Of a DNA stretch of 41,547 nt, positions 1 through 12,604 are shown in pieces. Position 1 is the first letter of the stretch, and every line of letters begins with the position of its first letter. The position numbers and the translations under genes were made by a program. The DNA comes from Nesterenkonia marinintestina (lineage in GTDB: Bacteria; Actinomycetota; Actinomycetes; Actinomycetales; Micrococcaceae). The notes under the pieces were generated by a model, which searched no databases, was not told the origin of the DNA, and saw only the letters and a list, made by a program, of their open reading frames with translations. The stretch is from NCBI RefSeq assembly GCF_025420485.1, contig NZ_JAOEFD010000016.1, positions 1 to 41,547 on the forward strand, in the 5' to 3' direction.

Positions 1-285
1 ATCCTGGTACATGAGACCGACCAACCAGGAGACTTCGAGCTAGAAGGCCAGCTGGAGCCGCCGTTCGATGTGCTCTTCAGCGCCGAAACCCGCAAGGCTG
101 TGGCCCAGATCCAGAAAGCCGAACAGAGCCAGTCCAGAAACAAAAACAAAGCGCCGACCCCTGAGGATCGGCGCTTGGATTCATCTGTATCGGCGGTACC
201 CGAACGCACTATTACGTCGACTATCACGCCTATGGTGCCCCCGGCAGGATTCGAACCTGCGACACCCGCTTTAGGAGAGCGGTAA
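1..285 (+). CDS. Partial reading frame entering from the left edge, unknown product
   Basis: This is the only forward frame open at base 1; it runs to TAA at 283-285. The first 50 or so residues are hydrophilic and charged (KAVAQIQKAEQSQS region) with fairly high third-position GC, so they may be the C-terminus of a real gene. The last part crosses the hairpin at 151-174 and then reads through the tRNA-derived repeat, giving the VPPAGFEPATPALGER string typical of spurious translations of tRNA genes. If the gene is real, its native C-terminus has probably been altered by the insertion at 231. No family recognised. It could belong to the chromosome or to a neighbouring element. Confidence 0.3.
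   Translation: MLVHETDQPGDFELEGQLEPPFDVLFSAETRKAVAQIQKAEQSQSRNKNKAPTPEDRRLDSSVSAVPERTITSTITPMVPPAGFEPATPALGER
151..174 (-). terminator. Intrinsic terminator, probably the original terminator of tRNA-Arg
   Basis: A perfect 7-bp stem (GCGCCGA / TCGGCGC) encloses a 10-nt loop. Read on the minus strand it is followed by a T-rich tract (TTTGTTTTTGTTT, 138-150), the classic layout. It lies 57 nt beyond the 3' end of the tRNA-Arg remnant at attL, on the same strand. I infer that it terminated the tRNA-Arg transcript before the element inserted between them. Confidence 0.6.
231..283. repeat. attL: left 53-bp direct repeat (3' part of tRNA-Arg)
   Basis: These 53 bases are identical to 9002-9054. The sequence corresponds to tRNA-Arg nucleotides 26-76 (anticodon stem-loop, variable loop, T arm, acceptor 3' strand, CCA) plus two downstream bases. 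The 5' quarter of the tRNA is missing here, so this copy is the displaced chromosomal 3' end left by integration. Confidence 0.9.
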
Positions 286-382
286 GGTTGCGCCTGTGAC
301 TAGGGCGTATAGGAGAATCCCCAGGTCAGCCCCATTCAGGGCGTTCGTGACGGTGCACCGATAACCGGGGTTTCCCATCCTC

Positions 383-404
383 CTGCGTACTGACTGCGTA
401 CTGG
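383..404. repeat. Left arm-type integrase site (two 11-bp units)
   Basis: Two tandem 11-bp copies of CTGCGTACTGR lie 100 bp inside attL. The whole 22-bp block recurs at 8927-8948 with one mismatch and in the same orientation. Paired arm motifs just inside both ends are what the N-terminal domain of a lambda-type integrase binds. The functional assignment is inferred. Confidence 0.65.
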
Positions 405-406
405 AG

Positions 407-799
407 TCAAGTCCTTGGGATACGTCGCCGTCGGCGAACGACTAACCAATCAGCAATTTCATCGATGCTCGGTTTTGTCTTCGCGATGTACTCAACGAAG
501 TCAGCGACTTCTTCGTCCTCCTCGACCTCAATGTAGTAACCATTGTCAGCGAGGAGAAACTGCGAGGCGGCCCACGCCGTGCGTTTATTCCCCTCACCGA
601 AATACTGCGTGGTCGCAAGCTCGAACAGGAGAGCTGCGGCCTTCTGGAACAAGCCCGGAAAGCGCTGGCAACCGCCGTAACCGCGGTGCGGCGCGTTGCA
701 AGCGCTTTCCAGGCCGTTCCTGTCCCTTACCGGGAGGTCGGTGAAGTGGCCGTTGATCTCGATTAGTAGAGTGGCCGAGATCCTATAGCGGACTTTCAA
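407..799 (-). CDS. Doc/Fic-family toxin (death-on-curing-like)
   Basis: A 130-residue Fic-fold protein like phage P1 Doc. N-terminal motif LPVRDRNGLESA and the helix GLFQKAAALLFEL precede the Fic loop QYFGEGNKR (residues 65-73). Doc proteins transfer a phosphate or nucleotide to translation targets such as EF-Tu. The canonical loop begins with a catalytic His (HxFx[D/E]GNKR); here that position is Gln65, so activity may be lost or altered. I chose the TTG at 797-799 because it overlaps the antitoxin stop (TTGA) and has GGAG upstream; a GTG at 832 would add 11 residues. It is the second gene of a toxin-antitoxin pair, directly beside attL and the arm site. Family confidence is high, activity uncertain. 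Confidence 0.8.
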   Translation of the reverse strand: MKVRYRISATLLIEINGHFTDLPVRDRNGLESACNAPHRGYGGCQRFPGLFQKAAALLFELATTQYFGEGNKRTAWAASQFLLADNGYYIEVEEDEEVADFVEYIAKTKPSIDEIADWLVVRRRRRIPRT

Positions 800-1344
800 C
801 GCTCCGCGAGGAGAGCGTTTGCACCTGCCCACCGGTCTAGTTGATCTCTTACCAGGTCGGTGATGCGAGGGGCTGGCATTGGCGCTGTGACGACCGGCGC
901 TTCAGGCCCAGGCTTCCCGAGGAGCTCCTGCTGTTCGTAGTAGTCCCGAATAGTCTCACGTGGAATGAGCGGGGACTTGTCACCGACTGCCAGTCCGCGA
1001 TTTCGAGCGGACACCCAGGGCTCCTCCTGGTGAGTCAATTCGGAAAGTTGTCCGCCGTCGTGGTCCCCGTAGTATGTGATCACGGCGTCCACCACGGCAC
1101 GGCTAGCATCGTCCAAGTCCTTGGGGTCACCTGGATCCTCGGATGCGGTGTCTCTGTCGTAGTGGAACGCTTGTGGGACAACTGGCCCCATCTCCCACGC
1201 CTTGATGTTCTCAGCGTAAAGGGGCTCACCTCGCCAGACGAGGTTCCACGCTTGGGCGTAGTACAGGAGCTTGAGGCGCTTGACTCGCCCCGCATCTGAA
1301 ACGCTCTGCTGGATATACGTCAGCACATCGAACACGCGGTGCAT
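796..1344 (-). CDS. Panacea-domain (SocA-like, DUF4065) antitoxin
   Basis: 182 residues. The N-terminal 100 or so carry the Panacea/DUF4065 signature: V-x-Y-I-x-Q near the start, then KRLKLLYYAQAWNLVW, ENIKAWEMGPVVP, and further helices. The domain is known to neutralise many unrelated toxins and in SocA acts as a proteolytic adaptor. The ATG at 1342-1344 follows a strong AGGAGGGAGG site; a longer frame exists upstream but lacks one. The gene precedes and overlaps the Doc-like toxin by a TTGA, the usual antitoxin-first order with translational coupling. A TTGACT at 1396-1401 (minus) may be its -35 box, but no good -10 follows. It probably stabilises the element; defence against competing phages is another possibility. 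Confidence 0.85.
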   Translation of the reverse strand: MHRVFDVLTYIQQSVSDAGRVKRLKLLYYAQAWNLVWRGEPLYAENIKAWEMGPVVPQAFHYDRDTASEDPGDPKDLDDASRAVVDAVITYYGDHDGGQLSELTHQEEPWVSARNRGLAVGDKSPLIPRETIRDYYEQQELLGKPGPEAPVVTAPMPAPRITDLVRDQLDRWAGANALLAER

Positions 1345-1593
1345 AGTGGCCTCCCTCCTGGTCCTGGCTGCCACGAATGGTCCTGTTCTCATGTTAGTCA
1401 ACAGCGCGACGTGGTGCTATCTTCCCGCGCTGACAACGCCCCGGTGGCACCCGTCAGCGGGGTTTGGTAGACCGCAAGAGTCTGGGCTGTGTGTGAATGG
1501 GCCAATGCCCGAGGGGTGCCACGCTGGACCCCCTGGAGGGGCATTCAAGCGACTGTGACACCGGTCCTCGCTGACCTCGCGTGTAAGCATCCG

Positions 1594-1755
1594 GCTATGC
1601 CGGTGGGAGGCGACTCTTAGCCCCAGGGCAGGGGCATGGTGGGGGCTACTGGTTCAGGTATTCCTCCCGTGTCAGAGCGGTTGTCTGAGGAAAAAGGATG
1701 GGGAGAGATCGCTATGCCGGTGGGAGCGACTTCCCGACCGCTTGTGGAGGGGCAT
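1594..1755. repeat. Imperfect direct duplication, period about 117 bp
   Basis: GCTATGCCGGTGGGAG occurs at 1594-1609 and 1711-1726. Each copy is followed by CGACT (one extra G in the first copy) and, about 20 bp later, by AGGGGCATGG (1630 and 1748). The two words keep almost the same spacing, so a module of roughly 45 bp is duplicated. It does not lie in a supported gene. Confidence 0.7.
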
Positions 1756-1760
1756 GGGCA

Positions 1761-1792
1761 GGGCCGGCCAGAGTGAGCACCCCGACCGGCCC
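1761..1792 (-). terminator. Hairpin downstream of the capsid gene, possible terminator
   Basis: GGGCCGG (1761-1767) pairs with CCGGCCC (1786-1792) across an 18-nt loop, 17 bp beyond the capsid stop codon in its direction of transcription. There is no T-tract, so it is a weak terminator candidate. Confidence 0.35.
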
Positions 1793-1808
1793 CGTTACCG
1801 TGCTGCGA

Positions 1809-2630
1809 TCAGCCGGTGATGGTGATCTTTGCCAACCGCTCAGGATAGGCGAAGCCGTAGGCCAGCCGTGCGGTCGCTCGGACCGCGATCCTGTCGGAGC
1901 TGAAGTACACGTCGCGGGACGACTCGACCTCGACGTTCTCGCGGATCACCGTGGTGATCGCACTGGAGTCGAGCACCCACACTGTGCCCTCCGTGGCGTG
2001 CTGGGAGGCGATCAGCGGCAGCCCGACGACGGTGGTGGTGTCCTCGACCAGGCCGCGGTTCGACCCGTCGGCATCCTTCAGTTGGGCGAGCTTCAGGATG
2101 TCCCGCGGGTGCGCGACGATGCTGGTCGCGGTACCGCCTGCCACGGCGATCTCAGTCTTGGCCGAGTGCAGCGGGTCCAGTGAGGCCAGTGCCCCGCCGT
2201 CGATCTCCTGCACGTCGGTCTGCTGCGCCAGTCCCTCGGGCCCGGGGGCTTCGGCGTTGCCCAGCAGGGCGGCGTCGGCGTGGAAGATCACCGACTGGGC
2301 CAGGGAGCGTCCGACCTCTTCGATGGCTGAGGGGGACGAGTCCTCGGCAAGCTCACGGCTGATCGGGACCAGGCCGGCGAGCTTACGCGGGGTGATGGTC
2401 AGCTCCCCGACGTCGAGGGCGGACGGGGCGATCTCTTCACCCTCGCTCACCCAGGCGGCTGCAGCGCCGCTCCGGACGATGGGGATCCTGTACTCGGTGG
2501 CCCCGGTCTGGGCGACCTGGGCGACCTCGGCACGGGTGCCCAGTCCCTCGTCGAGCAGCGGCCCCAGGATCAGTGCAGCCCGGTCGCTGGACGCGAGGGC
2601 CTGCACATTGGTGGTCAGCATAGTTGACAT
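1809..2630 (-). CDS. HK97-fold phage major capsid protein
   Basis: 273 residues match the mature part of HK97-family capsid proteins: an N-terminal arm (MLTTNVQALASSDRAALILGPLLDEG), an E-loop/P-domain region (EYRIPIV, AWVSEGEEI, ITPRKLAGLVPISRELAEDS), an A-domain region (VAHPRDILKLAQLKD), and the strand-rich C-terminus ending GFAYPERLAKITI. The size is close to a processed HK97 subunit (about 280), so the delta scaffolding domain is missing; the acidic coiled-coil gene upstream may replace it. The ATG at 2630 follows GAAAGG by 8 nt. It is the last gene of the leftward operon, set apart by a 219-bp leader with its own promoter-like TATAAT. No portal, protease or terminase accompanies it. Confidence 0.85.
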   Translation of the reverse strand: MSTMLTTNVQALASSDRAALILGPLLDEGLGTRAEVAQVAQTGATEYRIPIVRSGAAAAWVSEGEEIAPSALDVGELTITPRKLAGLVPISRELAEDSSPSAIEEVGRSLAQSVIFHADAALLGNAEAPGPEGLAQQTDVQEIDGGALASLDPLHSAKTEIAVAGGTATSIVAHPRDILKLAQLKDADGSNRGLVEDTTTVVGLPLIASQHATEGTVWVLDSSAITTVIRENVEVESSRDVYFSSDRIAVRATARLAYGFAYPERLAKITITG

Positions 2631-2849
2631 GTTTTGAACCTTTCAGGCATGGGCGTAGAACGGTGTGATCTGTTCTCTACCGGGGCGGCCCTGCCTGCGT
2701 CCGGTGCCCTGCCTGGGGGCGGTCGAGAGTGGGAGGGGAGCCGGGGCGTCGCCGACGCCGGGCCTGGCGTGCGCCCCGGGCTTACCCACCCGTTCGAGTC
2801 GGCCTACTTCAGTGCCAGGACTCTTTCACCATTATACCCGCTAGGGGTA
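2631..2849 (-). promoter_or_regulatory. Capsid leader with TATAAT box and competing hairpins
   Basis: On the minus strand a perfect TATAAT lies at 2831-2836. It overlaps a perfect hairpin (ATACCC-GCTAG-GGGTAT, 2834-2850) at the stop codon of the upstream gene. The predicted transcript would have a leader of about 190 nt. CCGGGGCG (2741-2748) can pair with CGCCCCGG (2772-2779), while the overlapping GGCGTC (2745-2750) can instead pair with GACGCC (2754-2759). No -35 box is obvious and no small gene is convincing. Confidence 0.45.
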
Positions 2850-3428
2850 TCAGCGGTCGCGGATCACGCTGCCCCAATCCCCTCCGGTGTACGGCTTCTC
2901 CGGCCCGGTGCCCGCCAGGGGGATATGTCCCTGAAGATGGTGGCGCGACCAGTCAATCCGACCGATGCGCTCGTGCGTGCGCGTCAAGATCTTCGCCGTG
3001 GGGTCCTCCGGCAGCCCCAGATCCTCTCGGGTCGAGTTGACCAGATGGAGCAGCCCGGCGTCATCGAACCCGCCTTCTGAGTCGATGAGGGTGTCCAGGT
3101 TCGCCCCGCTCATCCGCAGGATCTTCGACGTCATGCCGATGTGCTGAAGCTTCTCGTCGATCACGCTGGTCACGGTGGCCTGCAGCTTCGCGGCCAGCTC
3201 GTCCCGTTCGGCCTCGACCTCCCTCAGCCGAAGCCTGTGCCGTTTAGCCTCGCGGCGCAACCGGGCGTCGCCGTCATCCGGTTCGGGGTCGTCGGACTCG
3301 GCGGCCTCGTCATGGGCCTCGGCATCGTCGGTGTCGTCCTCGGGATGCTCCGTGATGGGCGCGTCATCCGCAGTGACTTCCTCCGCCCAAGCCTCCTGTT
3401 CGGTCTGTTCGTTCGTGTGCTCATGCAT
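2850..3428 (-). CDS. Acidic coiled-coil protein, putative capsid scaffold
   Basis: 192 residues. Residues 1-53 are extremely rich in Asp and Glu; about 54-95 form a charged heptad-like helix (LRLREVEAERDELAAKL); the C-terminal half contains VNSTREDLGLPED and a basic end. This architecture and the position just upstream of the capsid gene resemble phage scaffolding proteins (the DUF4355 type), which are acidic, helical and leave the shell during assembly. The ATG at 3428 has AGGAG 6 nt upstream and overlaps the previous stop by 8 bp. The role is inferred from composition and place, not from a diagnostic motif. Confidence 0.55.
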   Translation of the reverse strand: MHEHTNEQTEQEAWAEEVTADDAPITEHPEDDTDDAEAHDEAAESDDPEPDDGDARLRREAKRHRLRLREVEAERDELAAKLQATVTSVIDEKLQHIGMTSKILRMSGANLDTLIDSEGGFDDAGLLHLVNSTREDLGLPEDPTAKILTRTHERIGRIDWSRHHLQGHIPLAGTGPEKPYTGGDWGSVIRDR

Positions 3429-3753
3429 CGTCGTCTCCTGTCGTCTCTGCGGGCCAGGTGCTCCAGCCCTTGGCGTCTCCGTGCAGCACCCGGCGCTCGT
3501 GCAGCCCGCCCGTGTGGGTGTAACCGACCCAGTACGTGCAGCCGGTGGGCGGTGCGGGGTAGTCATGCTCGGCGATCGTGGTCAGCTCGGCGGCGGTCGG
3601 CTCGCGGACTCCGGCGCGGCGTCGGTGGTCGGCCTCGACGGTGCCGGTGTCGCTCACATACCGGGAACATGCCACGCGGTGCTGGTGCAACAGGTCTCGG
3701 AGGTGCTGCCCTCCGCACTCTCCGCACGGCGGCGGGACGGGGATATCATTCAT
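3421..3753 (-). CDS. Small zinc-ribbon-like phage protein, unknown function
   Basis: 110 residues, no family recognised. Cys10, Cys13, His17, His23, His25 and Cys29 could bind zinc (PPCGECGGQH). The C-terminal half contains YWVGYTHTGG and WSTWPAE, an aromatic stretch that suggests a small beta fold. Start ATG at 3753 with GGAGG 9 nt upstream. It overlaps the preceding gene by 8 bp and the next gene by 8 bp, so it is tightly coupled within the leftward operon. Confidence 0.6.
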   Translation of the reverse strand: MNDIPVPPPCGECGGQHLRDLLHQHRVACSRYVSDTGTVEADHRRRAGVREPTAAELTTIAEHDYPAPPTGCTYWVGYTHTGGLHERRVLHGDAKGWSTWPAETTGDDDA

Positions 3754-4036
3754 CGGTCTCTACCTCCGTAGGTTCGTGGGCCTCGGCCCATGCGGACATC
3801 TGGGCGAAGCTGTGGAGTTCGTTCGCGAGGAACCTCGCACCCTCGTCCCCTGACCGACTCAGCACGTACCCCGCCGTGACGAGGATCTGATTCAGCACTG
3901 CGAAGTGGTCCGGGGCCCGGACGGCGGTCTGGAGTGCTGAGACCTGGTCACCCCGTGCGGCGTGTTGCAGGGCGGCGAGTCCGGCCTGGGCTGAGGTGAG
4001 GACCTGAACATCGGAGAATCCATCACTGGTGGTCAT
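3746..4036 (-). CDS. Small helical phage protein, unknown function
   Basis: 96 residues from the ATG at 4036, which has GGAGG 7 nt upstream and forms an ATGA overlap with the preceding gene. A longer frame to 4138 lacks a ribosome site. The protein is predicted helical, with stretches such as AQAGLAALQHAARGDQVSALQTAVRAP and an acidic tail. No family recognised. Translational coupling on both sides indicates it is co-expressed with the ATPase and the capsid genes. Confidence 0.55.
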   Translation of the reverse strand: MTTSDGFSDVQVLTSAQAGLAALQHAARGDQVSALQTAVRAPDHFAVLNQILVTAGYVLSRSGDEGARFLANELHSFAQMSAWAEAHEPTEVETDE

Positions 4037-4299
4037 CGCCGGGCCTCCGCTCGTTCCTTCAGCTGGGCGTCCATCTTCTGCAGCTGGGCCTTCTGCCGCT
4101 CCAGAGTTACCTGGTTCTCCTTGGCTCGTGCCCTCCACACGTCCCGCTCGGCGCGGAGTGTTTCGGCTCGGGCCTCTAAGCGCTCTACCTTCATGTACAC
4201 GCCGGTCCGTGATGAGTCGAGGTGATCGTCGTCGGTGGGCAGCTCGTGCGGCAGCTCGGGCTCCGGGGTGCCGTCGGCTGCGTGTAGTGAGTTAGTCAT
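4033..4299 (-). CDS. Small coiled-coil protein, unknown function
   Basis: 88 residues. The ATG at 4299 follows AAAGGAA by 6 nt; the frame is open to 4446 but that part overlaps the ATPase gene and has no start signals. Residues 1-30 are acidic and proline-rich. The rest is one long charged helix (VERLEARAETLRAERDVW, QKAQLQKMDAQLKERAEARR), a likely coiled coil and probable oligomer. It lies 16 bp after the ATPase gene and overlaps the next gene by ATGA. Confidence 0.6.
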   Translation of the reverse strand: MTNSLHAADGTPEPELPHELPTDDDHLDSSRTGVYMKVERLEARAETLRAERDVWRARAKENQVTLERQKAQLQKMDAQLKERAEARR

Positions 4300-4315
4300 A
4301 GTCGGTTCCTTTCGG

Positions 4316-5665
4316 TCAGGCGGCCCAGTGGTCGCCGTGGATCTCGTCGCAGGAGTAGCACCCGCCGATGAGGTAATCGGCACCGTGCATGGGGCACTCC
4401 GGGGCACCCCTTGGGACTTCCGGGACATCCGTGACATCCGGGACATCGCTGTTATCGCGGGCCTGTTCTGTCACGGGTCCTGTCCCGGGTCCCGAGTCGA
4501 CATGTGAGACAGCGGATCCGTGTGATTTCGGGGTTCGTCCCGCATGTCCCGGGTGTCCCGCTTCTTCCGAGGGGTGTCCCTCCGAGGGGGTCTGAGTGGT
4601 CAGGTAGCGGGTGAACGCGTCCTGGAAGTCGGGGCGGCGAAACCCTCGGATGCGTCCGTGGATGGTGGATCTGAACTGCTGGGTCCGGATGTCGTACTGC
4701 CGCAGGAACTCGGCGAGCTTCCTCGGTGAGATGGGTGCCCCATACCAATCCGCCCAGGGCCTTTCCTCGAGCTCGGCCAGGTGGTCGATCAGGTCGCCGG
4801 TGGCGATCTCGGTGATCCCCTCCTGCTCGAAGATCGTCCTGATGTCCCAGAGCAGCTGGATACCGAGGCTGGGTTTCGAGTCGGAGGACTGGGCGACGAT
4901 CTTCTCGCAGGTCTCACGGGCCGTCTGGGGCCAGTGTCCGCCGACGCGGTCTGCGATGGCGATCAGCGGCTCCCAGATGTCCGCGGCCCGGTCGGAGACC
5001 GCGTCCGGCATGGTTGGGAAGTACCCGGCCAGACCCGGCCGGATGTCATCGGCCAGCTCGGCCAGGCGCGCGCTCAACGCCTCAACGTTCTGCTGCTCCA
5101 GGCGGCGACGGTACGGCTCCACTGCCTGCCCCGGTGCACGCTTCTTCATCGGGATCACGAACGTCCTGGTCATCAGGGCGTCCGGGATCTTCGCCCGGGA
5201 CAGCCCGGCCATCGCCACCGGCGCGAAGGTCGGGAACTTCCTGGTCTCGTGGTTGTCTCCGACGCAGCGCAGCGCGTAGGCGTTCCGGTAATACCCGCTG
5301 TTTAAGATCGTGGTCAGGTCGGCGTTGTCCTCGCCCTTACCGGAGTACACCCCGTCGATCTCGTCGAATATGAGAGTCAGCTCTCCCGCCTGCTTGTCGA
5401 TCTCCCTGAAGATCGCTGCCGGGGTCGCGCTGACGGAGAGGACACTGCGGTGCGACAGGGCCGAGACGACCTCCATCAGACGGGACTTCCCGCTGCCGGG
5501 CTCGGCGCTGAACGCTCCCAGCCGGCCGGTGTTGTCGAACTCGGAGATAAGCCACGTGTGCGCCACCCAGAGCGAGACGAGGTTGGAGTGGTGGTCCTCG
5601 GGGAAGGCGACGAACCGCTTGACGTAGGCGGTCACGTCGTCCAAGATTGCGGTCTTGTTCTTCAT
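4316..5665 (-). CDS. DUF3631 P-loop ATPase, putative replication helicase
   Basis: 449 residues. Walker A AEPGSGKS (54-61) and Walker B LTLIFDE (96-102) define a RecA/AAA-type ATPase. A C-terminal DUF3631 region ends near residue 370 (SPRKLAEFLRQYDIRTQQFR, GRIRGFRRPDF, FTRYL). DUF3631 proteins are replication helicases of actinophages and plasmids, often fused to a primase-polymerase; no primase part is present here. Residues 371-449 are low complexity, encoded partly by 9-bp tandem repeats (about 4418-4448), and end in a Cys/His cluster (CPMHG, CYSCDEIHGDH) that may bind zinc. Start ATG 5665 with GGAGG 8 nt upstream, ATGA overlap with the previous gene. It probably drives element replication. 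Confidence 0.75.
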   Translation of the reverse strand: MKNKTAILDDVTAYVKRFVAFPEDHHSNLVSLWVAHTWLISEFDNTGRLGAFSAEPGSGKSRLMEVVSALSHRSVLSVSATPAAIFREIDKQAGELTLIFDEIDGVYSGKGEDNADLTTILNSGYYRNAYALRCVGDNHETRKFPTFAPVAMAGLSRAKIPDALMTRTFVIPMKKRAPGQAVEPYRRRLEQQNVEALSARLAELADDIRPGLAGYFPTMPDAVSDRAADIWEPLIAIADRVGGHWPQTARETCEKIVAQSSDSKPSLGIQLLWDIRTIFEQEGITEIATGDLIDHLAELEERPWADWYGAPISPRKLAEFLRQYDIRTQQFRSTIHGRIRGFRRPDFQDAFTRYLTTQTPSEGHPSEEAGHPGHAGRTPKSHGSAVSHVDSGPGTGPVTEQARDNSDVPDVTDVPEVPRGAPECPMHGADYLIGGCYSCDEIHGDHWAA

Positions 5666-5910
5666 GCGGCGGGCCTCCGTTCTGTCGTCAGTCGCGCATC
5701 CTGCCGAGCCTGGGCCGCCTTTATCCCCGCGATCACGGTCGCGGCCGGCTCCATCTGCTCGGCGATCCGCCGCTGTTGCTCCAGCCGCGTAGCAGCCAGC
5801 TCGGCGCGGGCGTCCCGATCACCGGCGAGGTAGCCCGCCTCGTATCCGGCATGCCAGTCGACGCAATCGGGGCAGCTCGGCGGAGTGGGCCACACCTCGG
5901 CCGGCGTCAT
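5662..5910 (-). CDS. Small CxxC phage protein, unknown function
   Basis: 82 residues from the ATG at 5910, with GGGAGG 4 nt upstream and ATGA overlaps at both ends. Cys13 and Cys16 (SCPDCVDWHAGYEAGY) suggest a metal knuckle, followed by a charged helix (RDARAELAATRLEQQRRIAEQ). Short proteins of this build occur upstream of replication genes in actinophages, but I recognise no named family. The reading frame continues to 6153 without start signals. Confidence 0.5.
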   Translation of the reverse strand: MTPAEVWPTPPSCPDCVDWHAGYEAGYLAGDRDARAELAATRLEQQRRIAEQMEPAATVIAGIKAAQARQDARLTTERRPAA

Positions 5911-6143
5911 GCGGCCTCCCGATGCTCGGCCGGTCCGAGGGGCTGCAACCGGCACACCATCAACTCCGCATAGAGGCCGCGTTGGTGGGCTCGCTCGACC
6001 GCCCTCTGCGCGGCGCTCAGTGAGAGGTGGATGCTCCGCCGATAGACGGGCCCCGGATTGTCTCGGCGTCGGATCTGAGTCACGGTGACGACCGTCACCA
6101 GGGCACCATCGACGAGGCGGGTGAGGGTGCTGGAGGGGATCAT
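5907..6143 (-). CDS. Small phage protein, unknown function
   Basis: 78 residues from the ATG at 6143; both ends overlap neighbours by ATGA. A short beta-rich N-terminal half (ALVTVVTVTQIRRRD) is followed by a basic helix (LSLSAAQRAVERAHQRGLYAE). No family recognised. The coupling is the main evidence that the gene is real; no separate ribosome site is clear. Confidence 0.45.
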   Translation of the reverse strand: MIPSSTLTRLVDGALVTVVTVTQIRRRDNPGPVYRRSIHLSLSAAQRAVERAHQRGLYAELMVCRLQPLGPAEHREAA

Positions 6144-6520
6144 CCGTGCTCACCGTCCTCGGCCTGGTAGGCCTGACGGCGCTTGGCGAGGTGGCGGGCG
6201 TGCCATGCGTCGATGGAGTCCGCGTGCATCCTCAGCCAGTCGGCGAACTGTCGCAGGCGCTCGGTGTTGAGGGTCGCGTAACCGGCTGCGTCGATCTCCC
6301 CCGTCAAGGAGAGGTCAGCACCGATGCAGTCGGGTTCGCAGTTCAGGTCGGCGGCTTCCAGGACGGAGTAGTGAAGGTGCACGGTCAGAGCCGTGCCATC
6401 ATAGGCGTGTTCCGGAAAGTGGAGCGTTACCGGTTCGGCGCGGTGGTGCGGCTCGAATCGGGAGTCGGGGCCACATCCCCGCGGGTCGCGGTCGCAGCGG
6501 TCGGGATGAATGATCGTCAT
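6140..6520 (-). CDS. Small phage protein, unknown function
   Basis: 126 residues from the ATG at 6520; GGTGAG lies about 6 nt upstream. The N-terminus is rich in His, Asp and Cys (HPDRCDRDPRGCGPDSRFEPHH), and another Cys pair occurs mid-protein (NCEPDC), so metal binding is possible. The C-terminal third is a charged helix (LRQFADWLRMHADSIDAWHARH). No family recognised. It overlaps the preceding 58-codon gene and the following gene by ATGA. Confidence 0.5.
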   Translation of the reverse strand: MTIIHPDRCDRDPRGCGPDSRFEPHHRAEPVTLHFPEHAYDGTALTVHLHYSVLEAADLNCEPDCIGADLSLTGEIDAAGYATLNTERLRQFADWLRMHADSIDAWHARHLAKRRQAYQAEDGEHG

Positions 6521-6693
6521 CGCTGCTCACCGCCCGCCTGGTATGCGGCGATGGCTCGAGTGATTACCTCACTGGCCTCCATCCCGTTGTCGTCGGCATA
6601 GGCGGCGAGGTCGGTTACGAATCGGATAGCCCGGCCGGTGTACTGACGGATAGCGTCAAGGGTCTCGTTGGGAGTAAGCTGGTTGTTAGTCAT
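6517..6693 (-). CDS. 58-residue protein, unknown function
   Basis: The ATG at 6691-6693 follows AAGGAGA with good spacing, and the frame ends in TGA at 6517-6519, overlapping the next ATG (ATGA). The product begins MTNNQLTPNETLDAIRQY and is predicted to be two helices with many Ala, Asp and Glu residues (FVTDLAAYADDNGMEASEVI). No family recognised. The strong ribosome site and coupling to the next gene support it despite its size. Confidence 0.6.
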   Translation of the reverse strand: MTNNQLTPNETLDAIRQYTGRAIRFVTDLAAYADDNGMEASEVITRAIAAYQAGGEQR

Positions 6694-6702
6694 GATCTCT
6701 CC

Positions 6703-6786
6703 TTAGTGTTTGATCGTGGAGCGGCTGGCCTCGGATTGGACGTCACGGGGGTCAGTCGCTTTTTTCTTGATGGGGCGGAGTCGCAT
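6703..6786 (-). CDS. Possible 27-residue basic peptide
   Basis: ATG at 6784-6786, TAA at 6703-6705; AAGG lies 9 nt upstream. The peptide starts MRLRPIKKKATDPRD and is strongly basic at its N-terminus. Its stop codon abuts the ribosome site of the next gene, and it fills the gap between the excisionase-like gene and that gene. Too short for firm support. Confidence 0.3.
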   Translation of the reverse strand: MRLRPIKKKATDPRDVQSEASRSTIKH

Positions 6787-6802
6787 CTGCGATCCCTTCT
6801 TG

Positions 6803-7030
6803 TCAGGCCGGGGTGCTCCACTGCTGGTCGATTTGTTCCTGCAGCCAGCGGTCGAGTTCGGCGCGGGGGTAGCGCACCAGGCCGTGCAGCTTCACGGACC
6901 GGGGTCCTATCCCTTCGTGCCGCCAGCGGCGCAGGGTGCCCTCGGCGACTCCTAGGTATCCCTCGGCCCCGTTCGGGCCCTTGGTCGGGAACATCTGTCC
7001 CGCAGGAGCTTGGGTGGGTGGTGTGCTCAT
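6803..7030 (-). CDS. Excisionase-like helix-turn-helix protein (MerR/AlpA type)
   Basis: 75 residues from the ATG at 7030, which has GGGAGG 5 nt upstream. The core matches the HTH_17/excisionase fold: YLGVAEGTLRRWRHEGIGP (helix-turn-helix), SVKLHGLVRYP (wing), then RAELDRWLQEQ. Such proteins act as recombination directionality factors or as AlpA/MerR-type activators of satellite excision. It is the first gene of the leftward operon, opposite the XRE repressor, the usual place for a lytic-side regulator. The role in excision is inferred from family and context. Confidence 0.7.
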   Translation of the reverse strand: MSTPPTQAPAGQMFPTKGPNGAEGYLGVAEGTLRRWRHEGIGPRSVKLHGLVRYPRAELDRWLQEQIDQQWSTPA

Positions 7031-7055
7031 GGTTTCCTCCCTCATGCTGTTCAGT

Positions 7056-7089
7056 AACATCGAAACCGTGTCACAACGTTTCCGATGTT
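7056..7089. promoter_or_regulatory. Candidate repressor operator (inverted repeat)
   Basis: AACATCGAAAC (7056-7066) and GTTTCCGATGTT (7078-7089) form an inverted repeat with an 11-bp spacer and a one-base bulge. It sits at the predicted start of transcription of the leftward operon, where repressor binding would block it. Assignment to the XRE protein is inferred. Confidence 0.55.
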
Positions 7090-7092
7090 CCG

Positions 7093-7121
7093 ATGGTAGC
7101 CGTCTTCGTCGTCGCGTGCAA
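7093..7121 (-). promoter_or_regulatory. Leftward early promoter of the element
   Basis: On the minus strand TTGCAC (7116-7121) and TACCAT (7093-7098) are separated by exactly 17 bp, a good match to a housekeeping sigma promoter. Transcription would begin near 7086, inside the inverted repeat, and read the excisionase-like gene and the downstream operon. Confidence 0.55.
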
Positions 7122-7148
7122 CTGTGTTCGTGGTAATCCGTTTTCCGT

Positions 7149-7154
7149 TATGAT
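7149..7154 (+). promoter_or_regulatory. -10 box of the repressor gene, leaderless transcript
   Basis: TATGAT lies 6 bp before the repressor ATG at 7161, and there is no ribosome site. The -35 region (TTCGTG, 7127-7132) is poor. The spacing predicts a transcript starting at or next to the ATG. Confidence 0.5.
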
Positions 7155-7160
7155 CGACCT

Positions 7161-7823
7161 ATGACGGACGCTAACGATCAGTCGAGAGCCGAGGGCATCG
7201 ACCACAACATCGCCCGGTCGATCAAGTCGCGCCGCGATGTGCTGGGGTGGTCTCAGAAGAAGCTCGCCGACGAGCTGAAGGCCGGAGGGCTGCGGATACA
7301 CCAGCAGGCGGTCAACAACATTGAGAACGGTCACCGTGCGGTGAAGGTCGGCGAAGCGGTGGTCATTGCCGAGGTGCTGGGAGTCACGTTTGAGGATCTG
7401 ACCCGCGTGCAGCCGAGGCTCGGTATCAGTCAGAGTTACTGGGCCGCGGTCCCGACAAGGGATCACCTGGTGGATGCAGTCTCGGAGATGATCGCGGCCG
7501 TGGATCGGCTGCAGTTCGATCTGGACAACGACGGCATTCTTCGGCAGAACACTCTGGGGTTCGGTGAGGACTTCACAGAGGATGCGCGTCGGTTCCTCGA
7601 CAGGACGGGCCCCGTGCGTGTTGCAGAGCGGGCGCTGCTGCGATGGATCCTGGACGAGTACAACGCCGGCGTTCATCCCGACCCTAGGACGACTGAGAAC
7701 TACGCTGACGGCGCTATGGAGCTCGTGGCGGCACTGGTCGAGGACAACGCCGCTCTGCAGCACCGATGGTGGTACGCCGACCTGCAGCGCCTCCGGGGGT
7801 TAGACGATGCCCCCTCGACGTAA
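7161..7823 (+). CDS. XRE-family repressor of the element
   Basis: 220 residues. An N-terminal lambda-repressor-like HTH spans about residues 14-75 (SIKSRRDVLGWSQKKLADEL, RIHQQAVNNIENGHRAVKVGEAVVIAEVLGV). The remainder is helical (LVDAVSEMIAAVDRLQFDLD and later) with no recognised domain and no protease signature, so RecA-type self-cleavage is not evident. It is transcribed away from the excisionase operon and overlaps the integrase gene by 17 bp, so repressor and integrase are probably co-expressed in the quiescent state. Translation is probably leaderless. A helper phage product might relieve repression, but nothing here shows how. Confidence 0.8.
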   Translation: MTDANDQSRAEGIDHNIARSIKSRRDVLGWSQKKLADELKAGGLRIHQQAVNNIENGHRAVKVGEAVVIAEVLGVTFEDLTRVQPRLGISQSYWAAVPTRDHLVDAVSEMIAAVDRLQFDLDNDGILRQNTLGFGEDFTEDARRFLDRTGPVRVAERALLRWILDEYNAGVHPDPRTTENYADGAMELVAALVEDNAALQHRWWYADLQRLRGLDDAPST

Positions 7824-8991
7824 CCGTCGCGCCGGCGTCGAGGATCTATGGCGCAACTCGAAGGGTGAGCCCACCAAGAGGGACGGGACCGGGCTGCGGT
7901 GGCGTGCCCGCTGGGTGGACCCTCAGGGCCGGGAACGGAGTAAGGCATTTAGGCGACGGGTGGACGCGCAGCGTCACATCGATGAAGTGACGACCGCTCT
8001 GACCACTCACCGATACGTGGACCCTGCTGCGGGTCGGACGACCGTGGGGGAGATGCTCAGCCGGTACCTGGCGGGCCGGCAGGTCAAGGCAAAGACGATG
8101 GACGGCTATGAGTCGCTGGTGAATGCCCGCATCCTGCCGCGATGGGGCCCGGTGCGACTCGACCAGGTGGCCGGTGACGACGTCAGCGCGTGGATCACCG
8201 ACCTGCAGCGGGGCGACGATGCCGTGTCGGCAGCCCGGGCCAGACAGGCGGGGATCATTCTGCGGGCCGCCCTGCAGCTCGCCGTCGTCAACCGGATGCT
8301 GCCGGAGAACCCCGCTGCCGGTGTGGACCTGCCCGCTGGTAGCGCAAAGCGTAAGGGCGTGCGCCTGTCCGCTGCCGAGCTGTGGAAGGTCGCCGATGAG
8401 ATGCCCACGGAGGTGGACCGGGCGCTGCTGCTGACATTGGCGCTGACCGGAGTTCGCTGGGGAGAAGTCACGGCGCTAATGGTGGGAGCTGTGGACGTGG
8501 ACAGGCGACGGCTGACGGTGGAGCGCACCTACACCGACCTGAACGGCGAGATTGTCGAAGGGGTGCCTAAGAATCACGCGACACGCTGGGTGCCCGCTGC
8601 GCCGACGGTGATCGAGGCGCTGCGTCCGCTGCTGAAGGGTAAGACGGCGACCGACGATGTGTTCCGCACGTCCTCCGGTGCGGTGCTGCGGCACCGGAAC
8701 TGGGGCCGGCGTGTATTCCGTCCTGCCCTGGGTCGGGCCGGGTGTGATGAGTCGATGCGGATCCACGACCTGCGGGGTACGGCTGCGTCGCTGGCAATCT
8801 CGGCCGGGGCGAACATCCTTGCCTTGCAGCGGATGCTGGGCCATGAGAGCGCCGCGCTGACCCTCGATGTGTATGGGGCGTTGTATGAGGACGATCTGAC
8901 CGGACTGGCGGAGAAGATCGATTCCGCTGCGTACTCACTGCGTACTGGCGGAGAATCCGACCAGCCTCGCAGCGCCTCTATATCGCGCTGA
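7807..8991 (+). CDS. Tyrosine site-specific integrase
   Basis: 394 residues. An N-terminal arm-binding/AP2-like part (LRWRARWVDPQGRERSKAF) and a SAM-like core-binding domain (about 75-165) precede the catalytic domain. Catalytic residues are visible: Arg217 (GVRWGE), the beta-hairpin Lys in PKNHATRW, His320 and Arg323 (HDLR), His346 (LGHES) and Tyr356 (DVYG). It catalyses recombination between the element and the tRNA-Arg gene. ATG at 7807 overlaps the repressor gene. Its last codons contain the right arm site and its stop lies 12 bp from the tRNA 3' end, the usual tRNA-integrase arrangement. Confidence 0.95.
   Translation: MPPRRNRRAGVEDLWRNSKGEPTKRDGTGLRWRARWVDPQGRERSKAFRRRVDAQRHIDEVTTALTTHRYVDPAAGRTTVGEMLSRYLAGRQVKAKTMDGYESLVNARILPRWGPVRLDQVAGDDVSAWITDLQRGDDAVSAARARQAGIILRAALQLAVVNRMLPENPAAGVDLPAGSAKRKGVRLSAAELWKVADEMPTEVDRALLLTLALTGVRWGEVTALMVGAVDVDRRRLTVERTYTDLNGEIVEGVPKNHATRWVPAAPTVIEALRPLLKGKTATDDVFRTSSGAVLRHRNWGRRVFRPALGRAGCDESMRIHDLRGTAASLAISAGANILALQRMLGHESAALTLDVYGALYEDDLTGLAEKIDSAAYSLRTGGESDQPRSASISR
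8927..8948. repeat. Right arm-type integrase site (two 11-bp units)
   Basis: This 22-bp block matches 383-404 except for one base, has the same orientation and the same 11-bp internal period (CTGCGTACTSA then CTGCGTACTGG). It lies inside the integrase reading frame (residues AAYSLRTGG), 53 bp from attR. Integrase arm binding is inferred. Confidence 0.65.
8970..8990. terminator. Small hairpin at the integrase stop codon
   Basis: CAGCGC and GCGCTG pair across a 9-nt AT-rich loop. A short CTTTTA follows on the plus strand, so it could weakly terminate integrase transcription, or stop the tRNA transcript from the other side. It has no proper T-tract. Confidence 0.3.
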
Positions 8992-9001
8992 CAAGTGCTT
9001 T

Positions 9002-9054
9002 TATGGTGCCCCCGGCAGGATTCGAACCTGCGACACCCGCTTTAGGAGAGCGGT
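9002..9054. repeat. attR: right 53-bp direct repeat within tRNA-Arg
   Basis: Identical to 231-283. It covers tRNA-Arg nucleotides 26-76 and two flanking bases, so the element's own copy restores the 3' part of the tRNA gene after integration. Confidence 0.9.
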
Positions 9055-9079
9055 GCTCTATCCCCTGAGCTACGGAGGC
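9004..9079 (-). tRNA. tRNA-Arg(CCT)
   Basis: 76 nt with encoded CCA. Acceptor GCCTCCG pairs with CGGGGGC (one G-T pair), the anticodon stem CCGCT/AGCGG holds loop CTCCTAA, anticodon CCT, and the T arm contains GGTTCGAATCC. The D arm includes AGCTCAGGGGATAGAGC. It reads AGG codons. Its 3' part comes from the integrated element, and its original terminator appears to be at 151-174, 8.8 kb away. Confidence 0.97.
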
Positions 9080-9132
9080 GGGGAGGCATCGTCGGTCCGG
9101 CACAGGCCCGGCACCTCGTCGCGCCGCGGACC

Positions 9133-9138
9133 ATCCTA
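9133..9138 (-). promoter_or_regulatory. Possible -10 box of tRNA-Arg
   Basis: TAGGAT on the minus strand lies 53 bp upstream of the tRNA 5' end, in the gap after the membrane protein gene. No clear -35 element. Confidence 0.3.
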
Positions 9139-9155
9139 CCGGTTCGCACTCGGCG

Positions 9156-9902
9156 TCACGGCGTGCGGTTCTCCTGCAGGGACCGGCGGATCGCGTCCAC
9201 CACAACTGAACCGACTACCAGTGCGCCGACCACCACCAGCAGCACCCAGGACACCACGGTCAGGGACGACGCCGTCGCCACCGCCGACTCTGAGAGCTCC
9301 GCGGAGCCGAGGATGTGGTCGATCATGAACGTCTTCACGATGTCCACCACCATGAACACCGCCGCCGCGGCGAGCACCAGCCAGCGCAGCACCTTGCCCC
9401 GCATCAGCAGCCCCGCCGAGGCCCACGCGGAGAGGAACGCGGACACCGGGAACAGGATCCCCGCGGTCCGATGCAGGAACGTCAGCTGACCCCGGGCGTC
9501 ATCGTCCATCACCGACCGCAGCCGCTCCACGTCCTCGACGTCGAAGCCGCCCAACCGGGCACCCGGCATCGAGAACCCGCCGGCGAAGTATGTCATCTGC
9601 GGCATCGCGAACAGGTGCAGATAGGCGAACAGGAACAGGGTCACCAGCACCAACGCGTAGACCAGCAGCCGCGGATTCGACCGCACAGCCCCGCCGCCCG
9701 ACGCCCCGGCCGGACTCCGATCCCCGCGACGAGCCGGCTCCACCGACGGGTCGCGCCCCTCACGCTTGGCCTGCCGGAAGGCCCGCAGGCCACCGACCGG
9801 ACGCTCAGGCTCCGTTCCGCCCGATTCCGGCCCGCGGGCACGTTCGGACGCACCCGAGGACGCGGCCGGGTTGCCGCGGGTGGACTTCCTGCGCCGAGAC
9901 AT
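9156..9902 (-). CDS. Four-helix membrane protein, unknown function
   Basis: 248 residues. The first 75 or so are hydrophilic, rich in Arg, Gly and Pro. Four hydrophobic segments follow: LVYALVLVTLFLFAYLHLF, a segment around AGILFPVSAFLSAWASAGLL, LRWLVLAAAAVFMVVDIV, and VVSWVLLVVVGALVVGSVVV. An external loop between the first two is acidic (DVEDVERLRSVMDDDARG). The ATG at 9902 has AGGAGG upstream. It is divergent from pcrA. I recognise no family; conserved actinobacterial membrane proteins of this kind are common next to pcrA. Confidence 0.7.
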   Translation of the reverse strand: MSRRRKSTRGNPAASSGASERARGPESGGTEPERPVGGLRAFRQAKREGRDPSVEPARRGDRSPAGASGGGAVRSNPRLLVYALVLVTLFLFAYLHLFAMPQMTYFAGGFSMPGARLGGFDVEDVERLRSVMDDDARGQLTFLHRTAGILFPVSAFLSAWASAGLLMRGKVLRWLVLAAAAVFMVVDIVKTFMIDHILGSAELSESAVATASSLTVVSWVLLVVVGALVVGSVVVDAIRRSLQENRTP

Positions 9903-10051
9903 GCGCCTCCTGAGACCGTCACAGAGGATGAGGCGGCCGACCGGACCGGCGTCGACGGTCGCGCCACGATGGGCACACAGTATCCCACCCCGAGCCGGCC
10001 CGCCGCAGGGCGACCGGAGATGTCACCGCCGCCTCCTACACTGGTGGGACC

Positions 10052-12604
10052 ATGGACTTCGTCTTCACCCCGCCCTCCGAGCGTCCAGACACCGCACCCG
10101 GCCGCCCCCACCGGCCCGAGCAGAGCCCCACCCCGGACCAGGTCGACGCCGTCGCCGGCCTCAACGAACCTCAGGCGGAGGCCGTGGTCCACCGGGGCTC
10201 GCCGCTGCTCATCGTCGCCGGCGCCGGATCGGGGAAGACCAGGGTGCTCACCCGGCGCATCGCCCACCTGCTGCAGACCGGGGCCGCCCGCCCCCAGGAG
10301 ATCCTCGCGATCACCTTCACCAACAAGGCCGCCCGGGAGATGAAGGAACGCGTGGCCGAACAGGTCGGCCCCGTCGCCGAACGGATGTGGGTCTCCACCT
10401 TCCACTCCTCCTGCGTGCGCATCCTGCGCGCCGAAGCGGCCAACCTGGGCCGGAAGTCCACCTTCACCATCTACGACGCCGCCGACTCCCTGCGCCTGAT
10501 CACCACCATCGCCAAGCTCCACGACCTCGACCCCAAGCGCTTCGCCCCCCGCGCCATCCGCGGGCGGATCTCCACGCTGAAGAACGAGCTCGTCGACGCC
10601 GAGGAGTACACGCGCACCGCACCGCACGAACCGTTCTCCGAAGCCGTGGCCGCGGTCTACCGGGACTACACCGAACGGCTGCGGGCCGCCAACGCCTACG
10701 ACTTCGACGACCTGCTCACCGAGACCGTGTGGATGTTCGACGCCTTCCCCGCCGTGCTCGACAGCTACCGGCGCCGGTTCCGCCACGTGCTGGTCGACGA
10801 ATACCAAGACACCAACCACGCCCAGTACCGGCTGGTCCGCCAGCTCACCGGCGACGTCGACGGCGTCGAGACCCCCGGAGCGGAACTCACCGTGGTCGGC
10901 GACTCCGACCAGTCGATCTACGCCTTCCGCGGCGCAGACATCCGCAACATCGTCGAGTTCGAACGCGACTACCCGCAGGCGCGCACCGTCCGGCTGGAGC
11001 AGAACTACCGCTCCACCCAGACCATCCTCGACGCCGCCAACGCGGTCATCTCCCAGAACGCCGGACGCACCGAGAAGAACCTCTGGACCGACCTGGGGGA
11101 GGGGGAGCCGGTCACCCTGCACGTGGCGCCCTCCGAGTCCGACGAGGCCGAATGGATCGCCCGCACCATCGACGCCCTCGGCGACGACCACGGGATCCGG
11201 CCCTCCGACGTCGCCGTGTTCTACCGGACCAACGCCCAGTCCCGGTCCCTGGAGGAACGGCTCATCAGCCGCGGCATCCCCTACCGGGTGGTCGGCGGCA
11301 CTCGGTTCTACGACCGTAAAGAGATCAAGGACGCCCTCGCCTACCTCCACGTGATCAACAACCCCGACGACGACGTCAACCTCCGCCGGATCCTCAACGA
11401 GCCCAAGCGGGGCATCGGAGACCGGGCCGAAGGCGCCGTCGCCGCGCTGGCGCAACGGGACCGGACCACCTTCTTCGAAGCCCTGCGCCGGGCCGACGAG
11501 GCCCCGGCGATGGCCGCTCGCTCCGCCAAGGCGGTCGCCTCCTTCGTGCGGATGATGGACGACCTCATCGCCCTCAACGAGGACGAGTCCCCGGCCGTTG
11601 TGCTCGAAGCCGTGCTGGAGCAGACCGGGATGCTCGAGGCGCTGCGCCAGTCCAAGGACCTGCAGGACGAATCCCGGGCCGACAACCTCGGTGAGCTCGT
11701 CGCCGTGATGAAGGAGTACGAGGCCTCCACCGAAGGAGCCGCGCTCGCCGACTTCCTCGAACAGGTCTCCCTCATCGCCGACGCCGACGCCATCCCCTCG
11801 GCCGGCGACGAAGAGTCCGAGCGGCTGGCCCGGGAGCAGGGCCAGGTCACCCTGATGACCCTGCACACCGCCAAAGGACTCGAGTTCCCTGTGGTGTTCC
11901 TCACAGGGATGGAGCACGGGATCTTCCCCCACGCCCGGTCCATGTCCGACGCCGAGCAGCTCGCCGAAGAGCGGCGGCTGGCCTACGTCGGACTCACCCG
12001 CGCCCGCCGTCGCCTCTACCTCAGCCGGGCCGAATCCCGGCACCTGTGGGGCCAGCACCAGTACAACCCGCCCAGCCAGTTCCTCACCGAGATCCCCGAG
12101 GAGCTCCTCGAGGTCGACGCCGCCTCCTCCGCCGGGCTCGGCGGCGGACTCAGCGGCAGCCTCTCCGGCGGGTACGACGGAGGATACGGGGCAGCGTCCC
12201 GCTACTCCTCCCCGCAGTTCGGCGGATCCGGCGGCCGCGGAGCAGGCTCCGGCCGCTCAGGCTCTGCCGGCCGGCCCCTGGTCTACGGCGCGCCCGGGTC
12301 GGAGAAGACATCCTCCTCGCTGCCCGGTGCGCGCCGGGCGGCCGGGTCCATGTCCGGGCCGTCGTCCGGGTCCTCCGCCGGCGGTCCGACCGGCCACGCC
12401 GCCGGCTCCGCACCCCGCCAGGTCAACCCGGACCGGGAGATCCCGTCCCTGTCCCCGGGGGACGCCGTCACCCACCAGAAGTTCGGCCGCGGAGAGGTCC
12501 TCTCCGTCGAAGGCGCAGGCGACAAGACGGTGGCCAAGGTCAGCTTCGCCGGGAGCGAGAAGCGACTTCTCCTGCGATATGCTCCATTGGAGAAGGCCGA
12601 CTGA
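10052..12604 (+). CDS. pcrA: ATP-dependent DNA helicase PcrA/UvrD
   Basis: 850 residues, superfamily 1A 3'-5' helicase for nucleotide-excision repair, replication restart and removal of RecA filaments. Walker A AGAGSGKT (56-63), motif II VDEYQDTN, motif III VVGDSDQSIYAFRGA, motif IV LEQNYRST, motif V MTLHTAKGLEFPVV and motif VI YVGLTRAR are all intact. After the core comes a Gly/Ser-rich linker of about 120 residues, then the C-terminal Tudor-like RNA-polymerase-binding domain (HQKFGRGEVLSVEG to YAPLEKA). ATG at 10052 follows TACACT (10037-10042) by 9 bp with no convincing ribosome site, so a very short or absent leader is likely. It stands upstream of sucCD, a common actinobacterial order. 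Confidence 0.97.
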   Translation: MDFVFTPPSERPDTAPGRPHRPEQSPTPDQVDAVAGLNEPQAEAVVHRGSPLLIVAGAGSGKTRVLTRRIAHLLQTGAARPQEILAITFTNKAAREMKERVAEQVGPVAERMWVSTFHSSCVRILRAEAANLGRKSTFTIYDAADSLRLITTIAKLHDLDPKRFAPRAIRGRISTLKNELVDAEEYTRTAPHEPFSEAVAAVYRDYTERLRAANAYDFDDLLTETVWMFDAFPAVLDSYRRRFRHVLVDEYQDTNHAQYRLVRQLTGDVDGVETPGAELTVVGDSDQSIYAFRGADIRNIVEFERDYPQARTVRLEQNYRSTQTILDAANAVISQNAGRTEKNLWTDLGEGEPVTLHVAPSESDEAEWIARTIDALGDDHGIRPSDVAVFYRTNAQSRSLEERLISRGIPYRVVGGTRFYDRKEIKDALAYLHVINNPDDDVNLRRILNEPKRGIGDRAEGAVAALAQRDRTTFFEALRRADEAPAMAARSAKAVASFVRMMDDLIALNEDESPAVVLEAVLEQTGMLEALRQSKDLQDESRADNLGELVAVMKEYEASTEGAALADFLEQVSLIADADAIPSAGDEESERLAREQGQVTLMTLHTAKGLEFPVVFLTGMEHGIFPHARSMSDAEQLAEERRLAYVGLTRARRRLYLSRAESRHLWGQHQYNPPSQFLTEIPEELLEVDAASSAGLGGGLSGSLSGGYDGGYGAASRYSSPQFGGSGGRGAGSGRSGSAGRPLVYGAPGSEKTSSSLPGARRAAGSMSGPSSGSSAGGPTGHAAGSAPRQVNPDREIPSLSPGDAVTHQKFGRGEVLSVEGAGDKTVAKVSFAGSEKRLLLRYAPLEKAD

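Follow-up and report, generated by a model that had tools for sequence, protein, structure and literature searches.

How could a short chromosomal element make use of a phage capsid protein when no portal, packaging or tail gene can be recognised beside it? The question is raised by an 8.8-kb element of Nesterenkonia marinintestina at positions 231–9054 of a 41,547-base contig, the whole of which was analysed (the window). From its letters, the original prediction had described this element as a minimal capsid-diverting satellite with a complete integration module, a repressor/excisionase switch, a replication ATPase, a scaffold-like protein and an HK97-type major capsid protein, and with no other structural, packaging or lysis gene. 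The answer reached here is that it is probably an integrated phage satellite that makes its own shell and borrows the portal, packaging motor and tail of a helper phage. As judged by its genes, it would be a probable capsid-encoding, portal-less member of the candidate phage-inducible chromosomal islands (PICIs).

The element is delimited by an identical direct repeat (53/53 bp), the right copy of which lies, except for two bases, inside a tRNA-Arg gene (Table 1). No other direct repeat longer than 29 bp was reported in positions 1–14,000 at the same setting. The left flank comprises 230 bp only, because the contig begins there. A plasmid search gave 11 records, each covering about 1% of the query at the tRNA and at the attachment (att) ends. 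The minus strand carries, in order, genes for a Doc/Fic toxin and a Panacea antitoxin, a non-coding iteron region, the capsid and scaffold-like genes, three small genes, a DUF3631 ATPase gene, four small genes and a gene for an excisionase-like helix-turn-helix (HTH) protein; the plus strand carries the repressor gene and then the tyrosine integrase gene. All are intact. Profile matches confirmed the integration module, the two switch genes, the probable replication ATPase and the HK97-type capsid. Scans of the element proteins against Pfam (15 proteins), PHROGs (10, without the integrase, repressor and excisionase) and NCBIfam (10) gave no match to portal, terminase, protease, connector, tail or lysis families, in agreement with the predicted lack of further structural, packaging and lysis genes. 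The description as minimal did not hold, as the toxin-antitoxin pair and a conserved iteron region had both been missed.

The window capsid aligns only to positions 136–384 of the 385-position HK97 model TIGR01554 and therefore lacks the N-terminal delta domain. Its AlphaFold2 model (17 sequences, mean predicted local distance difference test score 82) had HK97 proheads as the best Foldseek match (E 6.8e-18), and a capsid profile search of PDB sequences led to HK97 gp5. In two phages examined, the capsid proteins are of 401 and 417 amino acids and are encoded beside portal and protease genes. The neighbouring protein is called scaffold-like because of its relatives, 5 of 17 members of the family alignment matching the head scaffolding family phrog_4708; to this extent the predicted scaffold stood. 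A scaffold relative was matched at 35 of 43 capsid loci.

Capsid matches were found in 6 of 30 genomes of the genus (E 1e-3) and in 18 of 396 genomes of the order drawn evenly from a larger group (E 1e-20), the own genome being included in both counts. The order survey gave 22 loci. The single-sequence capsid query had no match in genome_contigs or in viral contigs (IMG/VR), and alignment queries were used to find relatives there. Of 16 further loci in genome_contigs, 15 were used (the named loci, from Mycolicibacterium, Mycobacterium, Nocardia, Actinomyces, Actinokineospora, Microlunatus, Mobilicoccus and Brevibacterium) and one, from a remote Clostridiales metagenome-assembled genome, was set aside; IMG/VR gave nine further loci, of which four were used. 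Among 23 loci with a tRNA gene (order and genus, named and viral), the capsid gene lay between tRNA repeats in 18, with spans of 7.5–10.9 kb and 15 kinds of tRNA (the window, L015, L019, L047, L048, L049, L050, L053, L055, L056, L057, L059, L082, L095, L097, L101, L102 and L104). Hence, like elements do occur in other tRNA genes, as the original prediction had proposed to check. L101 and L104 have short repeats, of 20 and 18 bp, and gave no match to the integrase queries. No tRNA-end repeat was found around the capsid at L042, L044, L092 and L099, and no long direct repeat at L018, L041 and L043.

Portal genes were sought with the profiles PF04860 and PF05133 at the survey and named loci, the IMG/VR loci lying outside this test (38 loci in total, 24 survey and 15 named, L103 being from the same genome as L049). 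In the 20 survey genomes each profile matched in two, and no match was near any of 24 capsid loci (22 order-survey loci, L018 and L019). By contrast, the portal-bearing heads on contigs 12 and 23 of the N. marinintestina genome (2.58 Mb, 37 contigs) were detected. The 15 named loci come from 13 genomes, of which three were matched by PF04860 and five by PF05133, with no match inside any of the 15 capsid loci (two contigs measured, the rest judged by coordinates). The own genome had no PF04860 match, and PF05133 was matched on contigs 12 (C12) and 23 (C23) only; PF03354 and PF05119 gave no match in it, and phrog_2 gave one weak match, on contig C5.

Large terminases were sought by profile in the survey genomes rather than at the named loci. 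PF03354 matched in 1 of 20 survey genomes, away from the capsid, and was rejected as a test because it is too narrow, phrog_2 having found large terminases beside the L044 and L049 capsids. The phrog_2 profile is itself unspecific, with mostly weak matches in 15 of 20 genomes and in 11 of 14 controls, and its matches just upstream of a capsid were at these two loci. There (L044, 7052–9007; L049, 6898–8825), a small protein, a Terminase_6N ATPase and a weakly RNaseH-like part are encoded by separate genes, a split large terminase (ATPase and nuclease) standing just upstream of the scaffold and capsid genes, with no portal found. Genes for small-terminase (TerS)-like proteins, recognised by similarity to three seeds, are near the capsid at L046, L053, L055, L081, L082, L083 and L095; of these seeds, two had a match to Pfam Terminase_4, each below the cut-off. 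The capsid family ranges from capsid alone to capsid plus packaging motor, and the tested loci gave no portal.

The portal-bearing heads of the own genome belong to another class. Contigs 12 (L017, 1–3800) and 23 (L016, 1–3920) start with an SPP1-type portal gene, followed by MuF-like, scaffold-like and capsid genes, and on contig 23 apparent host genes follow the capsid, as judged by eye. Relatives of these heads occur in congeners, and the counterpart in one of them (L132 in G023, 10902–17239) adjoins genes taken for tad, prfB and ftsE and additionally encodes a 493-amino-acid protein taken for a large terminase and a small one taken for HNH, likewise by eye. This class looks like the arrangement of capsid-forming PICIs (cf-PICIs), the two own-genome copies being cut by contig ends. 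Its capsids are 25–27% identical to the window capsid and branch apart from it, hence the portal-less class is not simply the second class with gene loss. In a tree of 44 satellite-type and 7 phage or cf-PICI-like capsids, the 44 stood on one side of a branch. The capsids of WillG and Alyssa1, from phage records (see below), fall within the satellite group. The trees were built without L058 (in-frame stop) and L103, and the second also without the long-branch GEN_L012.

A sister element, L015, is located on contig 36 of the same genome (8.3 kb) at tRNA-Thr(CGT), with repeats at 8879–8941 and 17208–17270. It has a capsid with 67% identity to that of the window and includes relatives of the window scaffold, ORF110, ORF137, ORF82, ORF78, excisionase, repressor and integrase. 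The replication gene is of the AAA_25 family in L015 and DUF3631 in the window, and the cargo slot is occupied by a SprT-like peptidase gene in L015 and by the toxin-antitoxin pair in the window. The last 26 residues are common to both otherwise unrelated replication proteins (20/26 identical; window 4316–4396, L015 12650–12730) and perhaps mark a recombination joint.

In both elements, three iterons lie between the capsid gene and the cargo. The most similar DNA of the two is the block around the first window iteron, with 83.7% identity over 86 bp as compared with 71% for the capsid block. The exact iteron pattern occurs five times in the own genome, always in these two elements (reversed control, 0), and in none of 29 congeners; in viral contigs it was matched once in each of 14 contigs. 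The possibility that the iterons copy the packaging site of a resident helper was dropped, given this confinement to two satellites and the lack of matches in congeners. Folding of the RNA of the region is no better than that of shuffles (z 0.14), and a repeat excess downstream of the capsid is not general (P <0.05 in 5 of 17 loci, namely the window, L015, L019, L059 and L094). Since the replication proteins differ and the morphogenesis genes are common to both elements, a packaging or assembly role of the iterons is favoured over that of an origin. At L094 (Nocardia amamiensis), five 33-nt repeats with 48–61-bp spacing are located directly downstream of the satellite capsid gene (10956–11219), and the sequence between them is partly palindromic.

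Table 1. Features of the window element, with the iterons of the sister element L015 in the last row (aa, amino acids; ORF, open reading frame)
Feature	Position	Strand	Evidence or remark
attL, 53-bp direct repeat (3' part of tRNA-Arg)	231–283		repeat search
Doc/Fic-family toxin	407–832	-	PF02661 2e-9; phrog_577 Doc-like toxin 4e-17; TIGR01550 8e-15
SocA/Panacea-domain antitoxin	796–1401	-	PF13274 4e-18
Three bipartite 40–42-bp iterons (1505–1544, 1597–1637, 1714–1755)	1505–1755	+	candidate packaging or origin site
HK97-fold major capsid protein, 273 aa, without N-terminal delta domain	1809–2630	-	PF05065 8e-31; TIGR01554 4e-27; PDB profile match; AlphaFold2/Foldseek
Scaffold-like protein, acidic N-terminal part, coiled-coil-like centre (by eye)	2850–3428	-	family alignment
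ORF110, 110-aa protein with CxxC zinc-like motif	3421–3753	-	relatives near scaffold or capsid in several elements
Small protein	3746–4036	-	weak phrog_4587, 0.0011 (scanned as 3746–4138)
Coiled-coil-like protein (by eye)	4033–4446	-	homologue in sister element; true start may lie further in
DUF3631 ATPase, probable replication protein	4316–5665	-	PF12307 5e-57
Four small accessory ORFs (5662–5910, 5907–6143, 6140–6520, 6517–6693)	5662–6693	-	three with relatives in other elements
Excisionase-like HTH protein (HTH_17)	6803–7060	-	PF12728 2.3e-9
HTH repressor	7161–7823	+	PF01381 4.7e-11
Tyrosine integrase	7807–8991	+	PF00589 2.6e-14
attR, 53-bp direct repeat overlapping tRNA-Arg(CCT) 9004–9079 minus	9002–9054		repeat and tRNA search
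L015 iterons, three copies	9947–9986, 10039–10078, 10136–10176		

The adjacent toxin and antitoxin genes of the window would, by family, constitute a type II toxin-antitoxin system of the Panacea-Doc pairing. In L056, genes for an HTH/M78 peptidase protein and then a DUF4411 protein are near the capsid and within the element (7883–9549), and this looks like another toxin-antitoxin pair. The viral contig L081 (IMG/VR 3300028597_001046) includes two related capsid genes, at 2967–3812 and 12055–12900, alongside genes for a replication protein of the Rep_1 family, a protein of the FtsK/SpoIIIE type and a TerS-like protein. It is perhaps an element resembling the actinomycete integrative and conjugative elements (AICEs) combined with satellite capsids.

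Comparison of the window capsid with 50,697 phage records gave 90 matches, all below 60% identity, the best-ranked being 26.4% identical (among the 30 best of the 90), and the L030 capsid had no match among phage records. The capsid of L090 (Mycolicibacterium sphagni) led to twelve GenBank records of 10.9–11.1 kb, OR387110–OR387121, deposited as Mycolicibacterium phages with M. aichiense as host and including WillG, JSForest1 and Alyssa1. Eleven are 33.8% identical to the L090 capsid, and one is 36.7% identical over a shorter stretch. Annotation of three records includes a terminase (96–134 amino acids), head-tail adaptor, stopper, serine integrase, capsid and tape measure. The WillG terminase was assigned to TerS (phrog_1496). 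Of the 17 WillG proteins, 10 were scanned with PHROGs and showed neither a portal nor a large terminase (TerL), the other seven being shorter than 140 amino acids. Its adaptor gene resembles that of 50-kb mycobacteriophages, and its 651-amino-acid tape measure (L106, 8075–10030) is about 40–54% identical to listed proteins of such phages. Several of the latter align over about 800 codons, and the WillG protein looks short against these alignments; it may shorten the tail of a helper. The WillG scaffold matches those of integrated elements (best about 1e-14) and was the best-scoring query at 20 of 43 loci; a related scaffold is present in both M. aichiense records searched. No paper on these records was found in a literature search. 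Although deposited as phages, they are read here as packaged satellites.

Taken together, these data suggest how the element could work. The repressor/excisionase switch and the tyrosine integrase would keep it in tRNA-Arg until the action of a helper phage leads to its release and to replication by its own DUF3631 ATPase. An HK97-fold shell would then be built from the delta-less capsid protein and the separate scaffold-like protein, and it may be small and may divert helper assembly. As the element has no recognised gene for a portal, large terminase, connector or tail, it would need those of a helper: the shell would be built around the helper portal, filled by the helper packaging motor and given a helper tail. 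If a DNA site marks the element for packaging, the best candidate is the group of iterons next to the capsid gene, and the Doc/Panacea pair may serve addiction or phage interference.

A broader proposal can be put forward only tentatively, and it is rather less likely to hold than to fail. The elements would form a shell-only satellite class across Actinomycetota, with a delta-less HK97 capsid, an own scaffold, no portal and a small shell nucleated on a helper portal. Its members would range from capsid alone, as in the window, through those with TerS to those with a split terminase, and the M. aichiense "phages" would be packaged members whose short tape measure shortens the helper tail.

Several points weigh against the satellite assignment. 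The window element is known from its genes and not from particles, excision, induction, a helper or transfer. No complete helper prophage was identified in the host by portal, capsid and terminase families, the portal-bearing segments lying at contig ends, and the iterons do not identify a helper either, since a scan of 1.06 Mb that allowed up to three substitutions gave no further locus with the site. In L044, L045, L051, L091, L092, L093 and L100, the contig stops close to the capsid, and a portal may lie beyond. A short, delta-less capsid is not specific to satellites, as the portal-bearing heads of the own genome have capsids of 280–296 amino acids, and the branch that separates satellite from phage capsids is not firmly supported (95/62). 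The window scaffold-like protein itself has no Pfam or PHROG family match. The M. aichiense relatives are remote (34% identity to L090), and their origin from particles is a reading of the deposits. Finally, L081 indicates that such capsids also occur beside conjugation-type genes.

The alternative that survives best, although it is unlikely, is that the capsid mainly interferes, co-assembling with or poisoning helper heads in diversion or defence, and forms no shell of its own. The lack of portal and packaging genes would fit this, as would the cargo, a Panacea toxin-antitoxin of the kind linked to phage defence (PMC10440598, PMC8832971). However, the PADLOC library gave weak matches only for the toxin and none for the antitoxin, and a scaffold gene accompanies the capsid at most loci. 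Mixed lattices of helper and satellite are unlikely because the best-ranked phage capsid is only 26% identical, and relatives of the element have been deposited as complete phage genomes.

Somewhat less probable is a decayed prophage in which the portal, packaging, tail and lysis genes were lost and the capsid was left over. Short capsid-bearing Mycobacterium elements have been called prophage-like or remnant (PMC3986857), and broken copies do exist. L058 has an in-frame stop and a repeat span of 2.3 kb, and one congener, G024, contains a second, partial tRNA-Arg copy and an integrase fragment (71.5% identity over 193 bases) around 2133–2987 of L071, the remains of a related element in this same tRNA. 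In 11 of 29 congeners, G024 included, the tRNA-Arg gene and the gene beside it are contiguous, and the roughly 1.5 kb examined on each side of this tRNA revealed no full prophage in any of them. Such a prophage, or inactivation of most close copies, had been named in advance as evidence against a satellite, and the capsid is open in 21 of 22 order-survey loci. Furthermore, one size class and a capsid-bearing make-up are common to the 18 bounded elements in 15 kinds of tRNA, there is no close phage capsid among the matches listed, and the dN/dS ratios (non-synonymous to synonymous substitution) between the window and L015 are below 0.5 (capsid 0.39, scaffold 0.30, ORF110 0.40, integrase 0.48), as rough values from a simple count at high dS. 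Thus, the window element is probably not a deletion remnant.

That it is an integrative element moving by conjugation or generalised transduction, with a capsid domesticated, e.g. as a compartment, is very improbable: L081 does join capsids with Rep_1 and FtsK/SpoIIIE-type proteins, but the window element gave no match to conjugation genes, no compartment cargo protein is evident, and the terminase genes beside the capsid in some relatives indicate DNA packaging.

A satellite with a portal-less shell would be a different arrangement from that of the best-studied satellites, which either reshape the shell of the helper or bring all but the tail. If true, it raises an old question of phage assembly, namely how a foreign portal starts the lattice of another capsid, and the M. 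aichiense records suggest that a relative can be cultured and such a shell tested in it.

With regard to known systems (general background in PMC11389934 and PMC13230959), a significant share of the smaller actinobacterial elements has been supposed to be satellites (PMC10023795). Candidate PICIs with an integrase and a capsid were proposed in Mycobacterium, the satellite role being proposed and not shown (PMC10654092); they include phiRv1 (9.3 kb) and phiRv2 (10.8 kb). These candidates encode an integrase and a major capsid protein, many are located at a tRNA gene between att repeats, and some also have a scaffold or terminase gene (PMC10654092, PMC3986857). For one element, taken here to be phiBN42_1, PMC3986857 lists an integrase, excisionase, primase, prohead protease and capsid, and no portal; other short capsid-bearing elements there are with or without a portal. 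Like these candidates, the window has an integrase, att repeats and a major capsid gene (PMC10654092). Unlike them, it is in another genus, has no recognised prohead protease and includes Doc/Panacea cargo and iterons, phiRv1 and phiRv2 being compared by description. The kind was therefore already known as a proposal, which is extended here to another genus, with a second copy in the same genome, iterons, a survey for portals and a link to the M. aichiense records as additions.

The original prediction had placed capsid-encoding islands in Proteobacteria and Firmicutes. They are not limited to these, being proposed in Mycobacterium (PMC10654092) and described in Streptomyces (PMC10690885). Its apparent analogy with cf-PICIs fails: the window element is likewise integrated and small with a self-encoded capsid, but cf-PICIs, as outlined in PMC10690885, encode the portal, protease, connectors, both terminases and HNH, tails being all that they need from a helper. 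As none of these was found in the window element, it is not a cf-PICI. The Streptomyces satellites with encapsidation genes, MulchRoom and MiniFlayer, are also actinobacterial with an own capsid and scaffold; unlike the window element, they encode a portal and both terminases and are without obvious replication genes (PMC10690885). The WillG-type records (WillG, JSForest1, Alyssa1 and nine more) share a related capsid and a size of about 11 kb, and no portal or TerL was found in the WillG proteins scanned; the three with annotation examined have a serine integrase and, unlike the window element, add a small terminase, adaptor, stopper and tape measure. PICIs of the Staphylococcus aureus pathogenicity island (SaPI) type and P4 are not known to encode a major capsid protein. 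Like these, the window element is integrated, has its own regulation and replication and would depend on a helper, whereas they remodel the capsid of the helper (PMC10690885).

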